From Otariodibacter oris (GTDB taxonomy: Bacteria; Pseudomonadota; Gammaproteobacteria; Enterobacterales; Pasteurellaceae), in NCBI RefSeq assembly GCF_009684715.1, contig NZ_CP016604.1:759262-823261 (forward strand): DNA of 64,000 bases. Reading direction: 5' to 3'. A program made the translations under genes and the position numbers. The notes under the pieces are model-generated. The model worked only from the letters and a program-made list of their open reading frames with translations, ran no database searches and had not been told where the DNA came from. Positions 26,305 to 33,555 of the stretch are shown here, piece after piece (the first letter of the stretch is position 1; each line of letters opens with the position of its first letter).

Positions 26305-27690
26305 ATGTACTCATCAAATTTTAACAATCTACTTTTAAATGTCGACAGTTATAAAGCATCCCACTGGTTACAATACCCCCCTAATACTGAACATATTTCT
26401 TACTATATCGAAGCTCGAAAGAGTAATTTTGATGTTGTGATGTTCGGCTTACAAGCGTTTATTAAAGAATATTTACTTGTTCCAATCACTCAAACTGATA
26501 TAGATCAGGCAGAAATTACACTTACTGCCCACGGATTACCCTTTCATCGAAAAGGTTGGCAAAGATTGCTTGAAAAGCATAAAGGGTTATTGCCAATTAA
26601 AATAGATGCAGTGCCTGAAGGAACAGTCTTACCTGTTGGCAATGTAGTGTGTCAAATTGTAAATACCGATCCTGAATTTTATTGGTTATCGGGCTACCTA
26701 GAAACAGCGTTGCTACGTGCCGTATGGTATCCCTCGACAGTCGCTAGTATTTCTTATTTCTGTAAACAGAAAATTAAACAAGCCTTATTAAAATCGTCAG
26801 ATAGCCTTGATGGGTTAGACTTCCAACTGCATGATTTTGGTGCAAGGGGCGCTTCAAGCTTAGAAACAGTTGCATTAGGTGGATTAGCTCATTTAGTCAA
26901 TTTTAGAGGAACTGATAGTGTTTCAGCATTATTAGCGGCAAAGCGTTGGTACAACGTGACTAAAATGCCCGCTTTTTCTATTCCAGCAGCCGAGCATAGT
27001 ACCATCACAGCTTGGGGAAAAGATAATGAAGCGATGGCTTATGACAATATGATCACGCAATTTGCTGGCGACAAGAAAATTTATGCGGTTGTTTCAGATA
27101 GCTATAATTTATGGAATGCATTGGAAAATATTTGGGGAGAGCAACTTCATCAAAAAATTAAAGAAAAAGGTGGCAGATTAGTTATTCGTCCAGATAGCGG
27201 TGATCCTATTGAGATTGTGTGCAAGACCCTTGAGATCCTAGCAGAAAAATTTGGTACTACCGTCAATAGTAAAGGCTATAAGGTCCTCCCTGATTACATC
27301 CGTATTATTCAAGGAGATGGCATTAATATGAACTCCCTTGACCCTATTTTAGATGCCATTATGCAAAAAGGTTTTAGTGTTGAAAATGTGAATTTCGGTA
27401 TGGGTGGTGGCTTATTGCAACAAGTGAATCGAGATACGATGAGTTGGGCTATGAAAGCCAGTGCAATTTGTATTAATGGTGAATGGAAAGATATTTTCAA
27501 AGCCCCAATCACTAGCCAAATGAAACGTTCTAAAAAAGGTATTCAAGCCTTAATCTACGAAGACAACCAATGGCAAACTGTCCGACAAGATGAATTAGCT
27601 AACAGAGAAAATCAATTAAAAACAGTTTTCTTAAATGGTAAGTTATTGGTGGATGAGCATTTAGATAGTATTAGAGATAGAACGAGATAA
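26305..27690 (+). CDS. nadV: nicotinamide phosphoribosyltransferase NadV
   Basis: Converts nicotinamide plus PRPP to nicotinamide mononucleotide, allowing NAD synthesis from nicotinamide without an external V factor. 461 residues. Family signatures include VDSYKASHWLQYP at the N-terminus, LQLHDFGARGASS-type loop at about 175, AAEHSTITAWGKDNEA with the catalytic His, VIRPDSGDPIEIV and IQGDGINM for phosphate and ribose binding, and NFGMGGGLLQQVNRDT. The start at 26305 follows AGTGAGAAAATGAA. The gene is divergent from tyrP and is not accompanied by other NAD genes. It suggests a V-factor-independent strain, although an NMN adenylyltransferase is needed elsewhere. Confidence 0.95.
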   Translation: MYSSNFNNLLLNVDSYKASHWLQYPPNTEHISYYIEARKSNFDVVMFGLQAFIKEYLLVPITQTDIDQAEITLTAHGLPFHRKGWQRLLEKHKGLLPIKIDAVPEGTVLPVGNVVCQIVNTDPEFYWLSGYLETALLRAVWYPSTVASISYFCKQKIKQALLKSSDSLDGLDFQLHDFGARGASSLETVALGGLAHLVNFRGTDSVSALLAAKRWYNVTKMPAFSIPAAEHSTITAWGKDNEAMAYDNMITQFAGDKKIYAVVSDSYNLWNALENIWGEQLHQKIKEKGGRLVIRPDSGDPIEIVCKTLEILAEKFGTTVNSKGYKVLPDYIRIIQGDGINMNSLDPILDAIMQKGFSVENVNFGMGGGLLQQVNRDTMSWAMKASAICINGEWKDIFKAPITSQMKRSKKGIQALIYEDNQWQTVRQDELANRENQLKTVFLNGKLLVDEHLDSIRDRTR

Positions 27691-27760: not shown

Positions 27761-28324
27761 TTATGCATTTTCTTCAACTAATTGAACAAAGCGGTTCACA
27801 TAATCTTGCAAAAATTCGCGCGTTTTTTCTGTGTTTAAATTGCCATCTTCATCGAAATAAGTTGGTGAGTTGCCTAAAAAGATTTCAGGTTGTCCTACGG
27901 TTTTCATATCAAAGTAAGATAAAGCCAGTCTTAGATTTTTTTGGCTACTGTATCCGCCCATTTTTCCAACCGAGTGGCTGATGATGCCATTCGGTTTATT
28001 TTTCCAAGCGACATCATTATTTGGTTTTGATCCAATATCAACGGCATTTTTTAAACAAGCAGGAATGGTGCGGTTATTTTCTGGCGTAACAAAGAATATA
28101 CCATCTGAAGTTTTTATGGTTTCTCTAAATTCGGTGTATGCTTCTGGAAGAGGGAAATCGGTCATGGCAGGATCGTCATAGTCAAAGTTGTATAAAGGTA
28201 AGTGACCAATTTCGACGATGCTGACTTGATAATTTTGAGGAAACATAGGGATGATATTTTTTGCAATTTTTCTAGCAAAAGAGCCTTGGCGTAGGCTGCC
28301 AACTAATATACTTATTTTTTTCAT
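27761..28324 (-). CDS. NADPH-dependent FMN reductase family protein
   Basis: Flavodoxin-fold oxidoreductase (NADPH-dependent FMN reductase/quinone reductase family). 187 residues from the ATG at 28324 (MKKISILVGSLRQGSFARKIA), preceded by GGATACTCAC. An ATG four codons upstream is possible but lacks a ribosome site. The FMN phosphate loop GSLRQGSFARK and the isoalloxazine-contact loop TPENNRTIPACLKNAVD are clear, followed by SVGKMGGYSSQKNLR. The physiological substrate is unknown: flavin, quinone or ferric chelates are all possible. A Fur-like box about 100 bases upstream hints at iron control. Confidence 0.82.
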   Translation of the reverse strand: MKKISILVGSLRQGSFARKIAKNIIPMFPQNYQVSIVEIGHLPLYNFDYDDPAMTDFPLPEAYTEFRETIKTSDGIFFVTPENNRTIPACLKNAVDIGSKPNNDVAWKNKPNGIISHSVGKMGGYSSQKNLRLALSYFDMKTVGQPEIFLGNSPTYFDEDGNLNTEKTREFLQDYVNRFVQLVEENA

Positions 28325-28421
28325 GTGAGTATCCATTTTTAAAACAAACTTAAATTATGTTGATAATCAGAATATCCCAGTAGAAAAGGAGATATTACGG
28401 ATTAGCATTGGCTATTTTATT

Positions 28422-28486: not shown

Positions 28487-28521
28487 AAGGCTAAGAAAAG
28501 GTAAAATCCTTTCTTAGCCTT
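28487..28521 (-). terminator. hairpin downstream of the MFS transporter gene
   Basis: GGCTAAGAAA and TTTCTTAGCC (28489-28498 with 28510-28519) form a long stem about 40 bases past the MFS stop codon. The T run on the minus strand is interrupted, so efficiency is uncertain. Confidence 0.6.
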
Positions 28522-28559: not shown

Positions 28560-30203
28560 TTAATGATTTTTAAAGCCAACAAAATGTTTAATTTTTGGTT
28601 TATCACCTTGATGATAGGCATTAATTTCAGCTTGTAGTTGGGCATCCACTTTTGAAATTCTTCCATGTTGACGTAGATGCTCAGCCCAGCTTTCCACTAA
28701 AAACCATTCTAAAATAATTTCAGGATCTTCCGTATCTTCAACGACTCCCCAAGAATATGCACCATCTTTACGACGATGTTCTGCAAATTTTTTCAGCTTT
28801 CTTAAGAATGCTTTTTGATCATCTTTATTGATTCGATATTCAACTTGAATCATCACTGGTGAACGATGAAGTGGAATATTATCGTGAGTATGTGGGGCTT
28901 CCCAGTGGTTTGCAGGGGATAAATCATCTTCACCTAATGGCAATTTGGCTTTATTAGCTAATACACTAATAATGATAAGTATCACTGCACCCAGGGCAAG
29001 CGTCATCGACAAACCAATATATTGTGCAACAAATCCCCAAGTTAAACTTCCAACAGTCATTGCACCATTAAATGTTGTGAGATAAATTGCCAAAGAGCGA
29101 CCTCGTACCCAATTTGGTAAAATCGTTTGGGCAACGCCATTTAACGTTGTTAATGCAGTAATCCAAGCAAATCCAAGGAATAAGGTTGCGATAACAGCAG
29201 ACCATTGCGGCGGAGAAAGTGCTAAGAAACACATGACGACAGCACTAATAATTGCGGACGTTAATAATAGCTGATCTGAGGATAAGCGGTTTCTTAATAT
29301 TGGAAGAATAATTGCACCAATAATGGCACCTATTCCCACTGCTGCAAGGAGTAATCCGTAGAATCCTGCTGTTCCGCCTAATAATTGGCGGGCAATTAAT
29401 GGTAATAATGCCCATACTGGACTGACAAATAAAAAGTAGAGGACAGTACGGAAAAGCACACGATGTAAAGGTTTACTTGATTTTGCATAGCGTAATCCTG
29501 CACGGAATGCGCCCCCAAAATGCTCAAAGAGTTCATCATGTTCTTTAACTTCCCGTTTCCACCACCATAATGCACTAATGACAAATGCATAGCTGATGAC
29601 ATCCATTCCATAAGCAAAAGATGCCCCAAGTTGTGCAAGGACAACCCCTCCAATAGCGGGACCGACTGCACGAGAAATGTTGATACCTAATGAATTAAGA
29701 GCAACGGCATTTTTAAGGTTTTCACGATTAACTAATTCAGGCACGATAGCTTGCCATGTTGGTCCCATTAGTGCCGCACCGATTCCTCCAGTAAAGGTAA
29801 AGAGAACAAGTGTTATGACAGATTGTAAACCTGTTGCAGAAAGTAGCATTAGACAGGTACTACTTAAGGCCAAAATGAACTGAATTGAAATAAGAAATTT
29901 ACGACGGTCTAATATGTCCGACATGACTCCAGCAGGAATTGCGAGTAAGAAAAAGGGGAGTGTTGTTGCTGCTTGAATAAGTGAAACTGCAGCAGGTGAG
30001 GCTGATAATTCGGTAATTAACCAACTGCTTGCTACATCACGAATAAAACTACCGACATTACCTACGATAGTTGCAATCCATAAAATGAGGAACAGTTTTT
30101 GCCTAAGTGGGGCAAAGCTACCACCTTGTTTATTATTTTTTGGCTCTAGGTGGCTAGGTTGATGATCGTGATTTTCCGACCTTTTCTTTTTAGAAATTGG
30201 CAT
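28560..30203 (-). CDS. MFS transporter of the EntS type with a C-terminal ABM-like domain
   Basis: 547-residue major facilitator (MFS_3/EntS-like) with 10 to 12 membrane helices between about residues 30 and 420. The motif A-like loop GVMSDILDRRKFL and the pattern ASSWLITELSASPAAVSLIQAA are typical of this exporter group. After about residue 440 a soluble domain follows (MIQVEYRINKDDQKAFL through KHFVGF) that looks like a dimeric alpha/beta barrel of the ABM monooxygenase type. The His-rich, charged N-terminus precedes helix 1. Ribosome site AAGGAGAG. Last gene of the 33.2-28.5 kb operon. Substrate unknown; an exported product or an inhibitor is possible. Confidence 0.82.
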   Translation of the reverse strand: MPISKKKRSENHDHQPSHLEPKNNKQGGSFAPLRQKLFLILWIATIVGNVGSFIRDVASSWLITELSASPAAVSLIQAATTLPFFLLAIPAGVMSDILDRRKFLISIQFILALSSTCLMLLSATGLQSVITLVLFTFTGGIGAALMGPTWQAIVPELVNRENLKNAVALNSLGINISRAVGPAIGGVVLAQLGASFAYGMDVISYAFVISALWWWKREVKEHDELFEHFGGAFRAGLRYAKSSKPLHRVLFRTVLYFLFVSPVWALLPLIARQLLGGTAGFYGLLLAAVGIGAIIGAIILPILRNRLSSDQLLLTSAIISAVVMCFLALSPPQWSAVIATLFLGFAWITALTTLNGVAQTILPNWVRGRSLAIYLTTFNGAMTVGSLTWGFVAQYIGLSMTLALGAVILIIISVLANKAKLPLGEDDLSPANHWEAPHTHDNIPLHRSPVMIQVEYRINKDDQKAFLRKLKKFAEHRRKDGAYSWGVVEDTEDPEIILEWFLVESWAEHLRQHGRISKVDAQLQAEINAYHQGDKPKIKHFVGFKNH

Positions 30204-30236
30204 GTTACTCTCCTTAATTTATGCTTTTCTATACAT

Positions 30237-30291
30237 ACAAGCGGTCGGATTCCGCGATTAATGTGCAAAATCCGACCGATTTTTATACTAA
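30237..30291. repeat. intercistronic hairpin starting with an uptake signal
   Basis: An exact ACAAGCGGT at 30237 overlaps the left arm. GGTCGGATT and AATCCGACC form the stem, followed on the plus strand by ATTTTTA. It lies between the amidohydrolase gene and the MFS gene, both on the minus strand, so it may lower downstream expression or stabilise RNA. Confidence 0.6.
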
Positions 30292-30304
30292 CAATAAGTT
30301 AAAA

Positions 30305-32200
30305 TTAAGCCATCCAGCAAGAACAACCTAATGCCCCAAAGAAACCTTTGAGGTCTGAGCTAGGTATATTAGATCCCCATGCTCTCGCATGATCGTGTCC
30401 GTGTACACCACAAGCACTGCCACAGCCACAGCTTGCAACAGCTTGTTGGCGAATTGGGGATAATGAGTTTTTACCAGCGCCTTCAGGATTGCCCCAAGCC
30501 GCAAATCCTTTATATTTACGAACTGGTGACCAATCTGGCATTGCTGGTGGGACTGGATTATCGTCTAAGGAAGTGAAATCACCATCACCAAATACTACAC
30601 GTCCACCAACCACAGTAAGATGTGAAGTTAAGAAAGAAATTTCATCTTCTGGTACGGTGAAATAATCTTTACTTGGTACGATAAAGTCAGCAAATTGTCC
30701 CACTTCGATACGTCCACGTTTACCTTCTTCATTAGAGAACCATGAAACATTTTCTGTCCACATACGTAGCGCAGTTTCACGATCTAAAAGATTTGCACGA
30801 GGATATAAACTTGTTCCACCTACTGTTTTACCAGTAACTAACCAAGAGAGTGCGACCCAAGGGTTATAAGAGGCAACACGGGTTGCATCTGTACCCGCAG
30901 AGACTTTTACTCCACGATCTAAAATTTTCTTCACTGGTGGAGTGGCTTCTGCCGCAGCAGCACCATAGCGTTCAACAAAGTATTCACCTTGGTATGCCAT
31001 ACGGTGTTGTACGGCGACACCACCGCCTAAAGCAGCGATACGGTCGATAGATTTATCTGAAATTGTTTCAGCATGGTCAAAGAACCAATTGATACCCTCT
31101 AATGGTATGTCTTTATTGACTTTTTCAAATACGTCTAATGCACGAGAAATAGTTTCATCATAGGTTGCATGTAAACGCCAAGGCCATTTATTTTCAGCTA
31201 AAATACGCACCACTTCTTCTAAGTCACCTTCCATTTGAGGTGGCATATCAGGGCGAGGTTGGCGGAAATCTTCAAAGTCAGCCGCAGAGTATACTAACAT
31301 TTCGCCAGCACCATTATGTCTGAAATAGTCATTACCTTGTTTATATTTAACTGAAGATGTCCAATTTAAGAAGTCTTCTTTTTCTTCTTTCGGTTTTTGT
31401 GTAAACAAGTTATAAGCAATACGTACAGTTAACTGATTTTCATCAGATAATTTTTGAATAACTTCATAGTCATCTGGATAGTTTTGAGAACCACCACCTG
31501 CATCAATAATACCTGTAATACCTAAACGGTTTAATTCACGCATAAAATGACGAGTTGAATTTAATTGATATTCAAATGGAAGTTTTGGACCTTTAGCTAG
31601 GGTTGCGTATAGAAGGCTTGCATTTGGTGCAGCTAATAATAAACCGGTTGGATTACCTTGGCTATCTCGTACAATTTCCCCACCCACTGGATTAGGTGTA
31701 TCTTTTGTATAACCGACAACACGTAATGCTGCGGCATTGAGTAATGCACGATCGTATAGGTGTAAAATAAATACGGGTGTATCTGGTGCAATTGCGTTGA
31801 TTTCATCAATCGTTGGTAAACGTTTTTCCGCAAATTGATGTTCGGTAAATCCACCAACGACACGTACCCATTGTGGTGCAGGGGTAATATCAACTTGTGC
31901 TTTTAGCATAGCAAGTGCATCAGCAAGGCTACGCACTCCATCCCAACGAAGTTCGAGGTTATAATTTAATCCACCACGAATAACGTGAGTATGATTATCG
32001 AAAAGTCCTGGTAATACGCCTCGACCTTTTAGGTCAATTTTACGAGTACTTTCACCGGCTAAAGGGACAACATCTGAATCTGAGCCGACAGCTAAAAATT
32101 TTCCATCTTTAATTGCTACAGCTTGAGCAACAGGTTGAGCTTTATTTAAGGTTGTAATATTACCATTGTAAAAAATGATATCAGGAATTTGATTTGTCAT
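30305..32200 (-). CDS. YtcJ-type amidohydrolase with a Cys/His-rich tail
   Basis: 631-residue member of the amidohydrolase superfamily (amidohydrolase family 3, YtcJ-like). Metal ligands are visible as DNHTH (His70, His72) after LKGRGVLPG, with HATYDET and FFDHAE in the barrel and SAGTDATRVASYNPW near the C-terminal side carrying the catalytic Asp. The N- and C-terminal beta-sandwich pieces (YNGNITTLNKAQPV and GRIEVGQFADFIV) fit the family. After about residue 585 there is an unusual tail with Cys591, 593, 597, 626, 628 and His600, 602, 604. A strong GGAGG precedes the start, which overlaps the XapX gene by 20 bases. Substrate is unknown; N-acyl or cyclic amide compounds are plausible. Confidence 0.85.
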   Translation of the reverse strand: MTNQIPDIIFYNGNITTLNKAQPVAQAVAIKDGKFLAVGSDSDVVPLAGESTRKIDLKGRGVLPGLFDNHTHVIRGGLNYNLELRWDGVRSLADALAMLKAQVDITPAPQWVRVVGGFTEHQFAEKRLPTIDEINAIAPDTPVFILHLYDRALLNAAALRVVGYTKDTPNPVGGEIVRDSQGNPTGLLLAAPNASLLYATLAKGPKLPFEYQLNSTRHFMRELNRLGITGIIDAGGGSQNYPDDYEVIQKLSDENQLTVRIAYNLFTQKPKEEKEDFLNWTSSVKYKQGNDYFRHNGAGEMLVYSAADFEDFRQPRPDMPPQMEGDLEEVVRILAENKWPWRLHATYDETISRALDVFEKVNKDIPLEGINWFFDHAETISDKSIDRIAALGGGVAVQHRMAYQGEYFVERYGAAAAEATPPVKKILDRGVKVSAGTDATRVASYNPWVALSWLVTGKTVGGTSLYPRANLLDRETALRMWTENVSWFSNEEGKRGRIEVGQFADFIVPSKDYFTVPEDEISFLTSHLTVVGGRVVFGDGDFTSLDDNPVPPAMPDWSPVRKYKGFAAWGNPEGAGKNSLSPIRQQAVASCGCGSACGVHGHDHARAWGSNIPSSDLKGFFGALGCSCWMA

Positions 32201-32462
32201 GATTTTTATCCTCCACTGTTATCGAATGTTTACTTGGTAGCTCTCCTAAAACAGATTTTGTAGCGTTAGTTTCTTGGCAAGCATTAACAAAGCTTTGTCC
32301 TGTAAACATACTTTTAGCTACAGGGATGACTTGTTCACCAATGAGCATACCAAGTAAACCTAATAGCGCGACAATAGGAGGTGCAGGAGATCGAACATCT
32401 AAAGCATAATAAATTACACCGACTAAAATTCCGACACCAAAGCTAAGAAGATACATTTTCAT
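32181..32462 (-). CDS. XapX domain (DUF1427) membrane protein
   Basis: 93 residues from the ATG at 32462, which follows ACAGGTAAAAAAA; upstream in-frame codons to 32516 run through a hairpin and lack a ribosome site. The first 50 residues carry the XapX pattern YLLSFGVGILVGVIYYALDVRSPAPPIVALLGLLGMLIGE, with two membrane helices around the invariant RSPAPP. The remainder is a soluble, weakly conserved tail. Function of XapX proteins is unknown. They commonly sit next to YtcJ-like amidohydrolases and isochorismatase-fold hydrolases, as here. Translationally coupled to the amidohydrolase gene. Confidence 0.85.
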   Translation of the reverse strand: MKMYLLSFGVGILVGVIYYALDVRSPAPPIVALLGLLGMLIGEQVIPVAKSMFTGQSFVNACQETNATKSVLGELPSKHSITVEDKNHDKSNS

Positions 32463-32474
32463 TTTTTTTACCTG

Positions 32475-32522
32475 TAAAAAAGCGGTTCGATTGTTACTGT
32501 TTTGGTAAAATCGCACCGCTCA
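32475..32522 (-). terminator. hairpin between the isochorismatase-fold gene and the XapX gene
   Basis: AGCGGTTCGATT (32481-32492) pairs with AATCGCACCGCT (32509-32520) with one mismatch. On the minus strand it is followed by six T, so it should partly terminate transcription after the first gene of the operon. Confidence 0.7.
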
Positions 32523-32551
32523 TCATTTATTTATTAATCAAAAATTGATTT

Positions 32552-33238
32552 TTATTTTGCTGGGTTTGGTCCGATGCGTTCACCATGTTCAACTCGTTCT
32601 GGAGCTTTATGTACCATTGTATAAGCATAATCAACACCCATACCATATGCACCAGAATGTTCTTTTACGATATCCATTACTGCATCATAAGTATCTCTAC
32701 GTGCCCAGTCACGTTGCCATTCAAGTAAAACTTGTTGCCATGTAACAGGAACAACACCTGCTTGAACCATACGATCCATTGCATATTTGTGTGCATCAGC
32801 AGAAGTACCGCCAGAAGCATCTGCAACCATATAGATTTCATAGTCACCTTCAAGCATTGCGCATAATGCGAAGCTTAAGTTACAAACTTCAGTCCATAAT
32901 CCTGCAACAACAACTTTTTTACGTCCATTTTTTGCTAATGCATCACGTACGTTTTGGTCATCCCAAGAGTTCATTGATGTACGTTCTAAGATTTTATGAT
33001 CAGGGAACACTGATAATAATTCTGGATAAGTATGTCCTGAGAAGCTTTCTGTTTCTACTGTTGTAATTGTTGTTGGAATATTAAATACTTTTGCTGCTTT
33101 TGCTAATCCAACAACATTATTTTTTAATGTTTGACGATCGATTGATTGTACACCAAATGCCATTTGTGGTTGGTGGTCGATAATGATTAATTGGCTGTTT
33201 TCTGGAGTCAATAATTCAAGAAGTTTTTTGTTAGACAT
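32552..33238 (-). CDS. isochorismatase-fold cysteine hydrolase, YcaC-like
   Basis: 228-residue cysteine hydrolase of the isochorismatase superfamily, closest in pattern to E. coli YcaC. Asp21 (IIIDHQPQ), Arg86 (LERTSMNSWDD) and Cys119 (GLWTEVCNLSF) occupy the triad positions of YcaC. DASGGTSADAHKYAMDRMVQAG is another family block. The C-terminus is about 20 residues longer than YcaC. True isochorismatases lack this pattern, so isochorismate is unlikely as substrate. Ribosome site GGAGACG precedes the ATG. It is the promoter-proximal gene of the operon with XapX, amidohydrolase and MFS genes. Confidence 0.85.
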   Translation of the reverse strand: MSNKKLLELLTPENSQLIIIDHQPQMAFGVQSIDRQTLKNNVVGLAKAAKVFNIPTTITTVETESFSGHTYPELLSVFPDHKILERTSMNSWDDQNVRDALAKNGRKKVVVAGLWTEVCNLSFALCAMLEGDYEIYMVADASGGTSADAHKYAMDRMVQAGVVPVTWQQVLLEWQRDWARRDTYDAVMDIVKEHSGAYGMGVDYAYTMVHKAPERVEHGERIGPNPAK

Positions 33239-33555
33239 AATTTCGTCTCCATATAATTAATTTAACGATACTACTTCAAACTTGGAGTAGATAAATTGAA
33301 CTTCAATCCAATTCACGGTTTGCATTATATGCCTACTATTCGATAGATAAAGCCAGTTTTTGGAAAAATATTGTTTACTAATTTTATATAATAGAATTGT
33401 TTTTTGATTTATTTTTCTAAAAAATTAAATAAATTATTGTTTATTAATAACTTTTAAACGATTAATATTGAATCAATATAGAAACTTTAGTAATAAAAAT
33501 CCCCAATTATTTTCATAATTGGGGTTGATATTAAAATGATGTTGGAATTTATATT
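33239..33555. other. intergenic region with a terminator and a probable promoter
   Basis: 317 bases without a gene. The left-hand part (33324-33329) holds TATAAT on the minus strand, a plausible -10 for the isochorismatase-fold operon, next to an imperfect palindrome CTATTCGATAG at 33336-33346 that could bind a regulator. No regulator gene is adjacent. The middle is very AT-rich. The right end holds the terminator of the alanine symporter gene. Confidence 0.45.
33492..33528 (-). terminator. terminator of the alanine symporter gene
   Basis: CCCCAATTAT (33501-33510) and ATAATTGGGG (33515-33524) form a perfect stem with loop TTTC. On the minus strand it is followed by ATTTTTATT. Confidence 0.9.

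Follow-up and report, generated by a model that had tools for sequence, protein, structure and literature searches.

A conserved, mobile amidohydrolase module in Otariodibacter oris with a Cys/His tail, an apparent dual start in its relatives and a candidate role in chemical-stress detoxification

What is achieved by a set of four adjacent genes in Otariodibacter oris that is built entirely of known families, is conserved and mobile, and is nevertheless uncharacterised? The genes lie within the 64,000-nucleotide stretch analysed here (the window; bases 759262-823261 of a genome of 2.02 Mb on a single contig), and encode an isochorismatase-fold hydrolase, a XapX protein, an amidohydrolase and an MFS transporter, in operon order (Table 1). 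A preliminary description had placed the four ORFs at 28560-33238 between terminators, and ORF listing and Pfam searches agreed, putting all four on the minus strand, with terminator-like hairpins on either side that are consensus matches only. The tight spacing it proposed is found between XapX and the amidohydrolase, which overlap by 20 nt, but not at the other two junctions: the amidohydrolase and MFS genes are 101 nt apart, and the isochorismatase-XapX interval, 35 nt to the GTG at 32516 reached by the listed XapX ORF, is approximately 89 nt to the better-supported ATG near 32462 (MKMYLL...), which agrees with the M-K-x-Y-L at the beginning of XapX relatives. Both the 89-nt and 101-nt gaps contain inverted repeats. 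Similarly, transport genes had been described on both flanks, whereas the flanking NAMPT, FMN reductase, AgcS-type symporter and NicO protein genes (identified by Pfam) place them on one side only. The FMN/quinone reductase, with 3u7r and 1rtt (PA1204) as its nearest solved structures, is predicted to be outside the operon transcript, and is possibly associated with the operon. The NadV-type nicotinamide phosphoribosyltransferase gene nearby (26305-27690) likely bears on NAD precursor use in Pasteurellaceae. An Rfam search returned no match close to gathering scores, and an anti-phage defence system was discarded as an explanation, as PADLOC models match none of the four proteins.

Table 1. 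Positions of the genes and sequence features of the operon and its surroundings, numbered within the window
Feature	Position	Strand	Basis or remark
Isochorismatase-fold cysteine hydrolase, YcaC-like, 228 aa	32552..33238	-	ORF, PF00857
XapX / DUF1427 small protein, 93 aa from ATG	32181..32462	-	PF07235, TIGR03510
YtcJ-like amidohydrolase, 631 aa	30305..32200	-	PF07969
Shine-Dalgarno GGAGG of amidohydrolase	32210..32214	-	Sequence; within XapX coding region
Conserved C-terminal Cys/His tail (C591-A631), CGCGSACGVHGHDHARAW...FFGALGCSCWMA	30308..30430	-	Invariant in 37-row alignment
Inverted repeat with Pasteurellaceae uptake signal ACAAGCGGT, amidohydrolase/MFS gap	30237..30280	.	
MFS_3-family exporter-type transporter, C-terminal extension, 547 aa	28560..30203	-	PF05977
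Terminator-like hairpin 3' of MFS gene	28487..28521	-	14-bp stem; consensus match only
Terminator-like hairpin, AgcS-type gene/operon interval	33501..33524	.	Consensus match only
NADPH-dependent FMN / quinone reductase	27761..28336	-	PF03358; next gene past operon terminator

The recurrence of this neighbourhood in proteobacteria, previously put forward, is genuine: the gene set and order are found in dozens of distant alpha-, beta- and gamma-proteobacterial genomes, far beyond chance. Among the 80 genome loci whose amidohydrolases are closest, 77 have the isochorismatase-fold hydrolase, 73 XapX, 65 DoxX, 61 the MFS gene, 33 a ring-cleaving-dioxygenase-like gene, 31 an alpha/beta hydrolase and 27 pirin, with a prevailing order of LysR(divergent)-[pirin]-hydrolase-XapX-amidohydrolase-[DoxX]-MFS. 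The LysR gene lies within about 6 kb at 60 of these loci; hence the lack of a linked regulator noted previously applies to the genes adjacent to the window copy, but not to the system. Because these loci are skewed towards close relatives, each protein was also used to search a sample of 398 Pseudomonadota genomes that had been drawn evenly. The amidohydrolase was present in 47, including 24 of the 25 genomes with a strong XapX match of about 60 bits or more (Fisher p=2e-24, a test that ignores genome relatedness), whereas just 24 of the 47 amidohydrolase genomes had XapX. XapX therefore goes with the amidohydrolase, and the reverse does not apply. The hydrolase was within 5 kb of the amidohydrolase at 40 of 56 loci, and the amidohydrolase was present in 26 of the 27 genomes with the highest-scoring MFS matches, the only matches to which that count applies. 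Hence these four genes are a genuine module. Its recurrent neighbours elsewhere are LysR, DoxX, pirin/quercetinase, glyoxalase/ring-cleaving-dioxygenase-like, alpha/beta hydrolase, RidA, ChaC and quinone reductase genes, with 9 of 46 genomes having pirin no more than 6 kb from the amidohydrolase, against an expected 0.4 (p=7e-10), and an ABM monooxygenase adjoining the module in Pseudomonas- and Enterobacterales-type variants. In Pantoea, two tandem XapX-type genes are divergent from the amidohydrolase (L107 5462-5940, L184 3494-4709), and in the genome containing L184 the amidohydrolase also has FMN reductase and ABM genes beside it.

The amidohydrolase scored 430.5 bits against PF07969 (Amidohydro_3; cut-off 29.7), and its predicted metal ligands (H70, H72, H344, H376 and D438, aligned to 3igh) were invariant in 37 rows. 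Past the catalytic domain is a tail of approximately 40 residues with the pattern CxC..C..HGHxH..GALGCSC[WF]A, the window protein ending in the GCxC[WF] of the PA2699 type. The terminal motif was in every complete member examined at 57% identity or above, and gone at 46% or below. Within this range the first CxC is reduced to a single Cys in members of 57-66% identity, and one otherwise typical member (L131) is without the CxC/HGHxH block yet retains the end motif. The tail had no significant match in Pfam or the PDB, and an AlphaFold model built with 37 close relatives left it unresolved, the mean pLDDT of 57 making the model too poor for placing it. The tail is likely to be a second metal or thiol site, and its defined sequence is now open to testing for metal or redox function. 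A CaaX-like reading of the C-terminus (CWMA, CWAV, CFAF) was considered and set aside, because bacteria are not known to have the corresponding prenyltransferase.

By sequence, the counterpart of the window module in Pseudomonas aeruginosa is PA2698/PA2699. The YtcJ-like PA2699 is a Tat substrate whose translation, when the gene is plasmid-borne, can begin at either of its two start codons; the authors described it as possibly the first bacterial case of localisation set by the start codon (PMC4899797). The published signal peptide of PA2699 (PMC6085387) has an 89% identical match immediately ahead of an amidohydrolase belonging to this subfamily, and the hydrolase, XapX and MFS genes adjoin that amidohydrolase. 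A Tat-type N-terminus was found in 76 of 157 amidohydrolase rows, a redundant set, and all 76 retain an internal Met at the start position of Tat-less members. Among the 37 Tat-bearing genes left when near-copies were removed, 34 have a strict Shine-Dalgarno sequence ahead of this internal ATG, just past the Tat linker, and 24 have one ahead of the Tat start itself. The corresponding figures are 21 of 503 for control internal Mets, and 20 of 1024 for the remaining signal and linker codons. The mean anti-SD duplex energy was -7.0 kcal/mol at the internal ATG versus -2.4 kcal/mol at controls. Hence the internal start appears to be under selection in alpha-, beta- and gamma-proteobacteria alike, and two starts in many lineages would place the amidohydrolase on either side of the inner membrane. 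The dual localisation shown for PA2699 therefore appears to extend family-wide, which would turn one reported case into an apparent conserved property. The window amidohydrolase has just six in-frame codons before its ATG and no RR motif, and the Tat form is likewise absent from the other Pasteurellaceae copies and many further members. Having lost this form and kept only the internal start, the window protein is expected to be confined to the cytoplasm. Three points are additions to the preliminary description, namely the Cys/His tail, the dual-start/Tat property and the PA2698/PA2699 counterpart; of the features described here, it is the conserved dual start and the tail that deserve specialist notice.

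The other proteins also have clear family assignments. The hydrolase scored 101 bits against PF00857 (Isochorismatase; cut-off 27), and alignment to 1yac and 4wgf, its nearest solved structures, identified D21, R85 and C119 as the Asp-Arg-Cys catalytic set reported for PaYcaC (PMC4519933). XapX, probably membrane-embedded, scored 116.9 bits against PF07235 (DUF1427; cut-off 27.1) and 66.2 bits against TIGR03510 (cut-off 27.8), and the transporter 682.7 bits against PF05977 (MFS_3; cut-off 27). The XapX/DUF1427 family was called restricted to plant-associated bacteria in 2005 (PMC554113), unlike its distribution here, which includes Pasteurellaceae, Moraxella and Conchiformibius. The literature searched on XapX and DUF1427, also in combination with neighbour genes, reported no function; its tie to one amidohydrolase subfamily gives the XapX family a testable home.

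The operon had been suspected to be an accessory insertion, and rather than occupying this position in all Pasteurellaceae, the subfamily was present in only 5 of 140 genomes, at differing sites, with further matches in that family being distant amidohydrolases. Among named relatives the closest, a MAG labelled Otariodibacter sp., has an amidohydrolase that is 97% identical. The module is at the window's site in a sister genome (G104), and adjoins genes without counterpart in the window in three others (G105, G106 and G047); judging from the starts of their sequences, the neighbours in G106 are presumably glycerol kinase and glycerophosphodiester phosphodiesterase, and those in G047 MenD and HemL. 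This rarity and variation in site argue for an accessory insertion. In the amidohydrolase tree, the Pasteurellaceae copies group together (95/90), alongside Moraxella, Conchiformibius and Lautropia, and are nested among beta- and gamma-proteobacterial sequences. Hence the module was, judging from these sequences, horizontally acquired by a few Pasteurellaceae from a proteobacteria-wide family. The base composition, previously called not obviously different, is unremarkable in GC3, but overall GC is slightly raised (39.4% versus 36.2 +/- 1.9% in same-size windows). Foreign composition was accordingly rejected as a sign of insertion.

Exchange may also have occurred within the locus. In G104 an unrelated 662-aa ORF replaces the MFS and FMN reductase genes, and homology breaks near two same-direction ACAAGCGGT uptake signals at window positions 27690 and 30237, making gene exchange at the signals bordering this block possible. 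The same observation takes in L100 10162, and the window contains 10 such signals in 64 kb. The inverted repeat in the amidohydrolase-MFS gap is present in all Pasteurellaceae copies retaining the MFS gene, the equivalents in L101, L102 and L103 having AAGTGCGGT and ACAAGCGGT cores. Further afield, an IncF plasmid of Escherichia albertii has an amidohydrolase fragment that lacks annotation (L109 7001-7981; residues 130-456, 84% identical) adjoining an IS21 transposase, a module remnant on an enterobacterial plasmid. No close DNA match was found in E. coli genomes, and no relative in viral contigs. The hydrolase-amidohydrolase pair of L112 (CAKLQF020000001), labelled Acinetobacter phage, lies amid clearly bacterial genes, and this is probably a bacterial contig deposited as phage; a 60% identical "phage" match (H101) was discounted, being among bacterial genes (tau, ars) in a probably mislabelled contig.

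What, then, does this module do? We favour a horizontally moving system for detoxification under chemical stress, with a probability of roughly 45%. The substrate would be a toxic compound, probably an electrophilic aromatic or one related to quinones, that contains an amide, imide or similar bond. The metal-dependent amidohydrolase would open this bond, the cysteine hydrolase would process the product further, the MFS_3 protein would export the compound or its products, and XapX would assist at the membrane; we infer the substrate class, order of reactions, direction of export, and roles of XapX and the tail. The stress-type neighbours (LysR, DoxX, pirin, ring-cleaving-dioxygenase-like, ABM and quinone reductase genes) favour detoxification over plain amide catabolism. 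Additionally, ectopic expression of the LysR protein BexR raises PA2698 7-fold, along with PA1202 (YcaC), PA1203, PA1204 (quinone reductase) and PA1205 (pirin) (PMC2796861; PMC4051601). Combined with those neighbours and the PA1204-related reductase beside the window operon, this co-regulation leads us to prefer, with moderate confidence, detoxification of an electrophilic aromatic or quinone-like compound to catabolism of amides, defence against oxidants or the handling of metals. Against this, the window operon has no stress-type neighbours save the FMN reductase beyond the terminator, which is not adjacent to the module in other Pasteurellaceae, and the association with neighbours alone fits quinones, reactive chlorine, isothiocyanates and plant phenolics alike. 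The literature found names no substrate; PA2699 was detected in the exoproteome under phosphate starvation, and the perturbations to which PA2698 responds are several and unrelated, so no single toxin fits.

The preliminary description had instead proposed breakdown of an amide-type compound, which is possible but not supported, as neighbours including RidA and ChaC better fit chemical-stress detoxification. In its catabolic form, in which the hydrolases free nitrogen or carbon from an amide, N-formyl, hydantoin or carbamoyl compound and the MFS protein is a facilitator, this idea seems unlikely, if far from negligible. The folds of both enzymes include known amidases, namely the N-substituted formamide deformylase NfdA (25% identity) and N-carbamoylsarcosine amidohydrolase, and the module is common on rhizobial plasmids, where nutrient catabolism genes abound; yet the transporter is of the MFS_3/EntS-like efflux rather than uptake type, and the neighbours are stress-type rather than those of central catabolism. 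A more specific defence against host oxidants (hypochlorite or chloramines), in which the Cys/His tail and the RidA, pirin, DoxX and ChaC neighbours would belong to a response to oxidants while the hydrolases clear chlorinated or oxidised amides, is decidedly improbable: gamma-glutamylcyclotransferase neighbours scored as oxidative-stress genes near chlorite dismutase (PMC9751292), and PA2699 is reportedly up-regulated on airway-cell contact and in infection models (PMC4899797), but hypochlorite induction was not found in the literature searched, and the carriers found were mostly soil or plant bacteria. Least probable of all is that the amidohydrolase chiefly binds Zn, Ni or Cu through its tail, with weak catalysis, for although the conserved CxC..C..HGHxH and terminal GCSC motifs, the Tat export of a pre-folded, usually cofactor-bearing protein in relatives and the ChIP peak of CzcR (zinc) that was attributed to PA2698 (PMC13209446) point that way, the catalytic metal ligands are invariant and L131 manages without the CxC/HGHxH block.

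Detoxification can be joined to the structural findings in a single tentative reading, with the odds rather against the whole being correct. A new enzyme subfamily with an extra Cys/His metal or redox site would be made in two forms via a conserved internal ribosome-binding site in the Tat linker, so that cytoplasm and periplasm alike would be protected from a single class of reactive compound, and the version in Pasteurellaceae would be horizontally acquired and cytoplasm-only. The mobile, probably protective module also crosses from bacteria of soil and plants into those associated with animals.

The window hydrolase has the fold and Asp-Arg-Cys set of YcaC (E. coli and P. aeruginosa PA1202; 1yac, 4wgf), but reaches only 133.8 bits against the NCBIfam YcaC equivalog NF041461, under the cut-off of 310; hence it is not YcaC, but a separate subfamily tied to the amidohydrolase. 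The transporter has the MFS_3 domain of EntS-type exporters, but at 99.7 bits falls under the equivalog cut-off of 324 for the EntS enterobactin exporter (NF007792). The amidohydrolase has the Amidohydro_3 domain and metal-ligand pattern of NfdA/YtcJ (COG1574), although the approximately 25% identical alignment with NfdA stops at residue 521, leaving the Cys/His tail without a counterpart in that match. The nearest likeness is to PA2698-PA2699, comprising a YcaC-like hydrolase and a YtcJ-like Tat exoprotein of the same amidohydrolase subfamily. In the P. aeruginosa-type locus, read in a related genome through the signal peptide match, the amidohydrolase has the same tail and is approximately 65% identical to that of the window, the hydrolase and XapX genes adjoin it and the MFS gene is downstream. 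Unlike in the window, the hydrolase and XapX genes are divergent from the amidohydrolase, and PA2699 has the Tat form that the O. oris protein is without.
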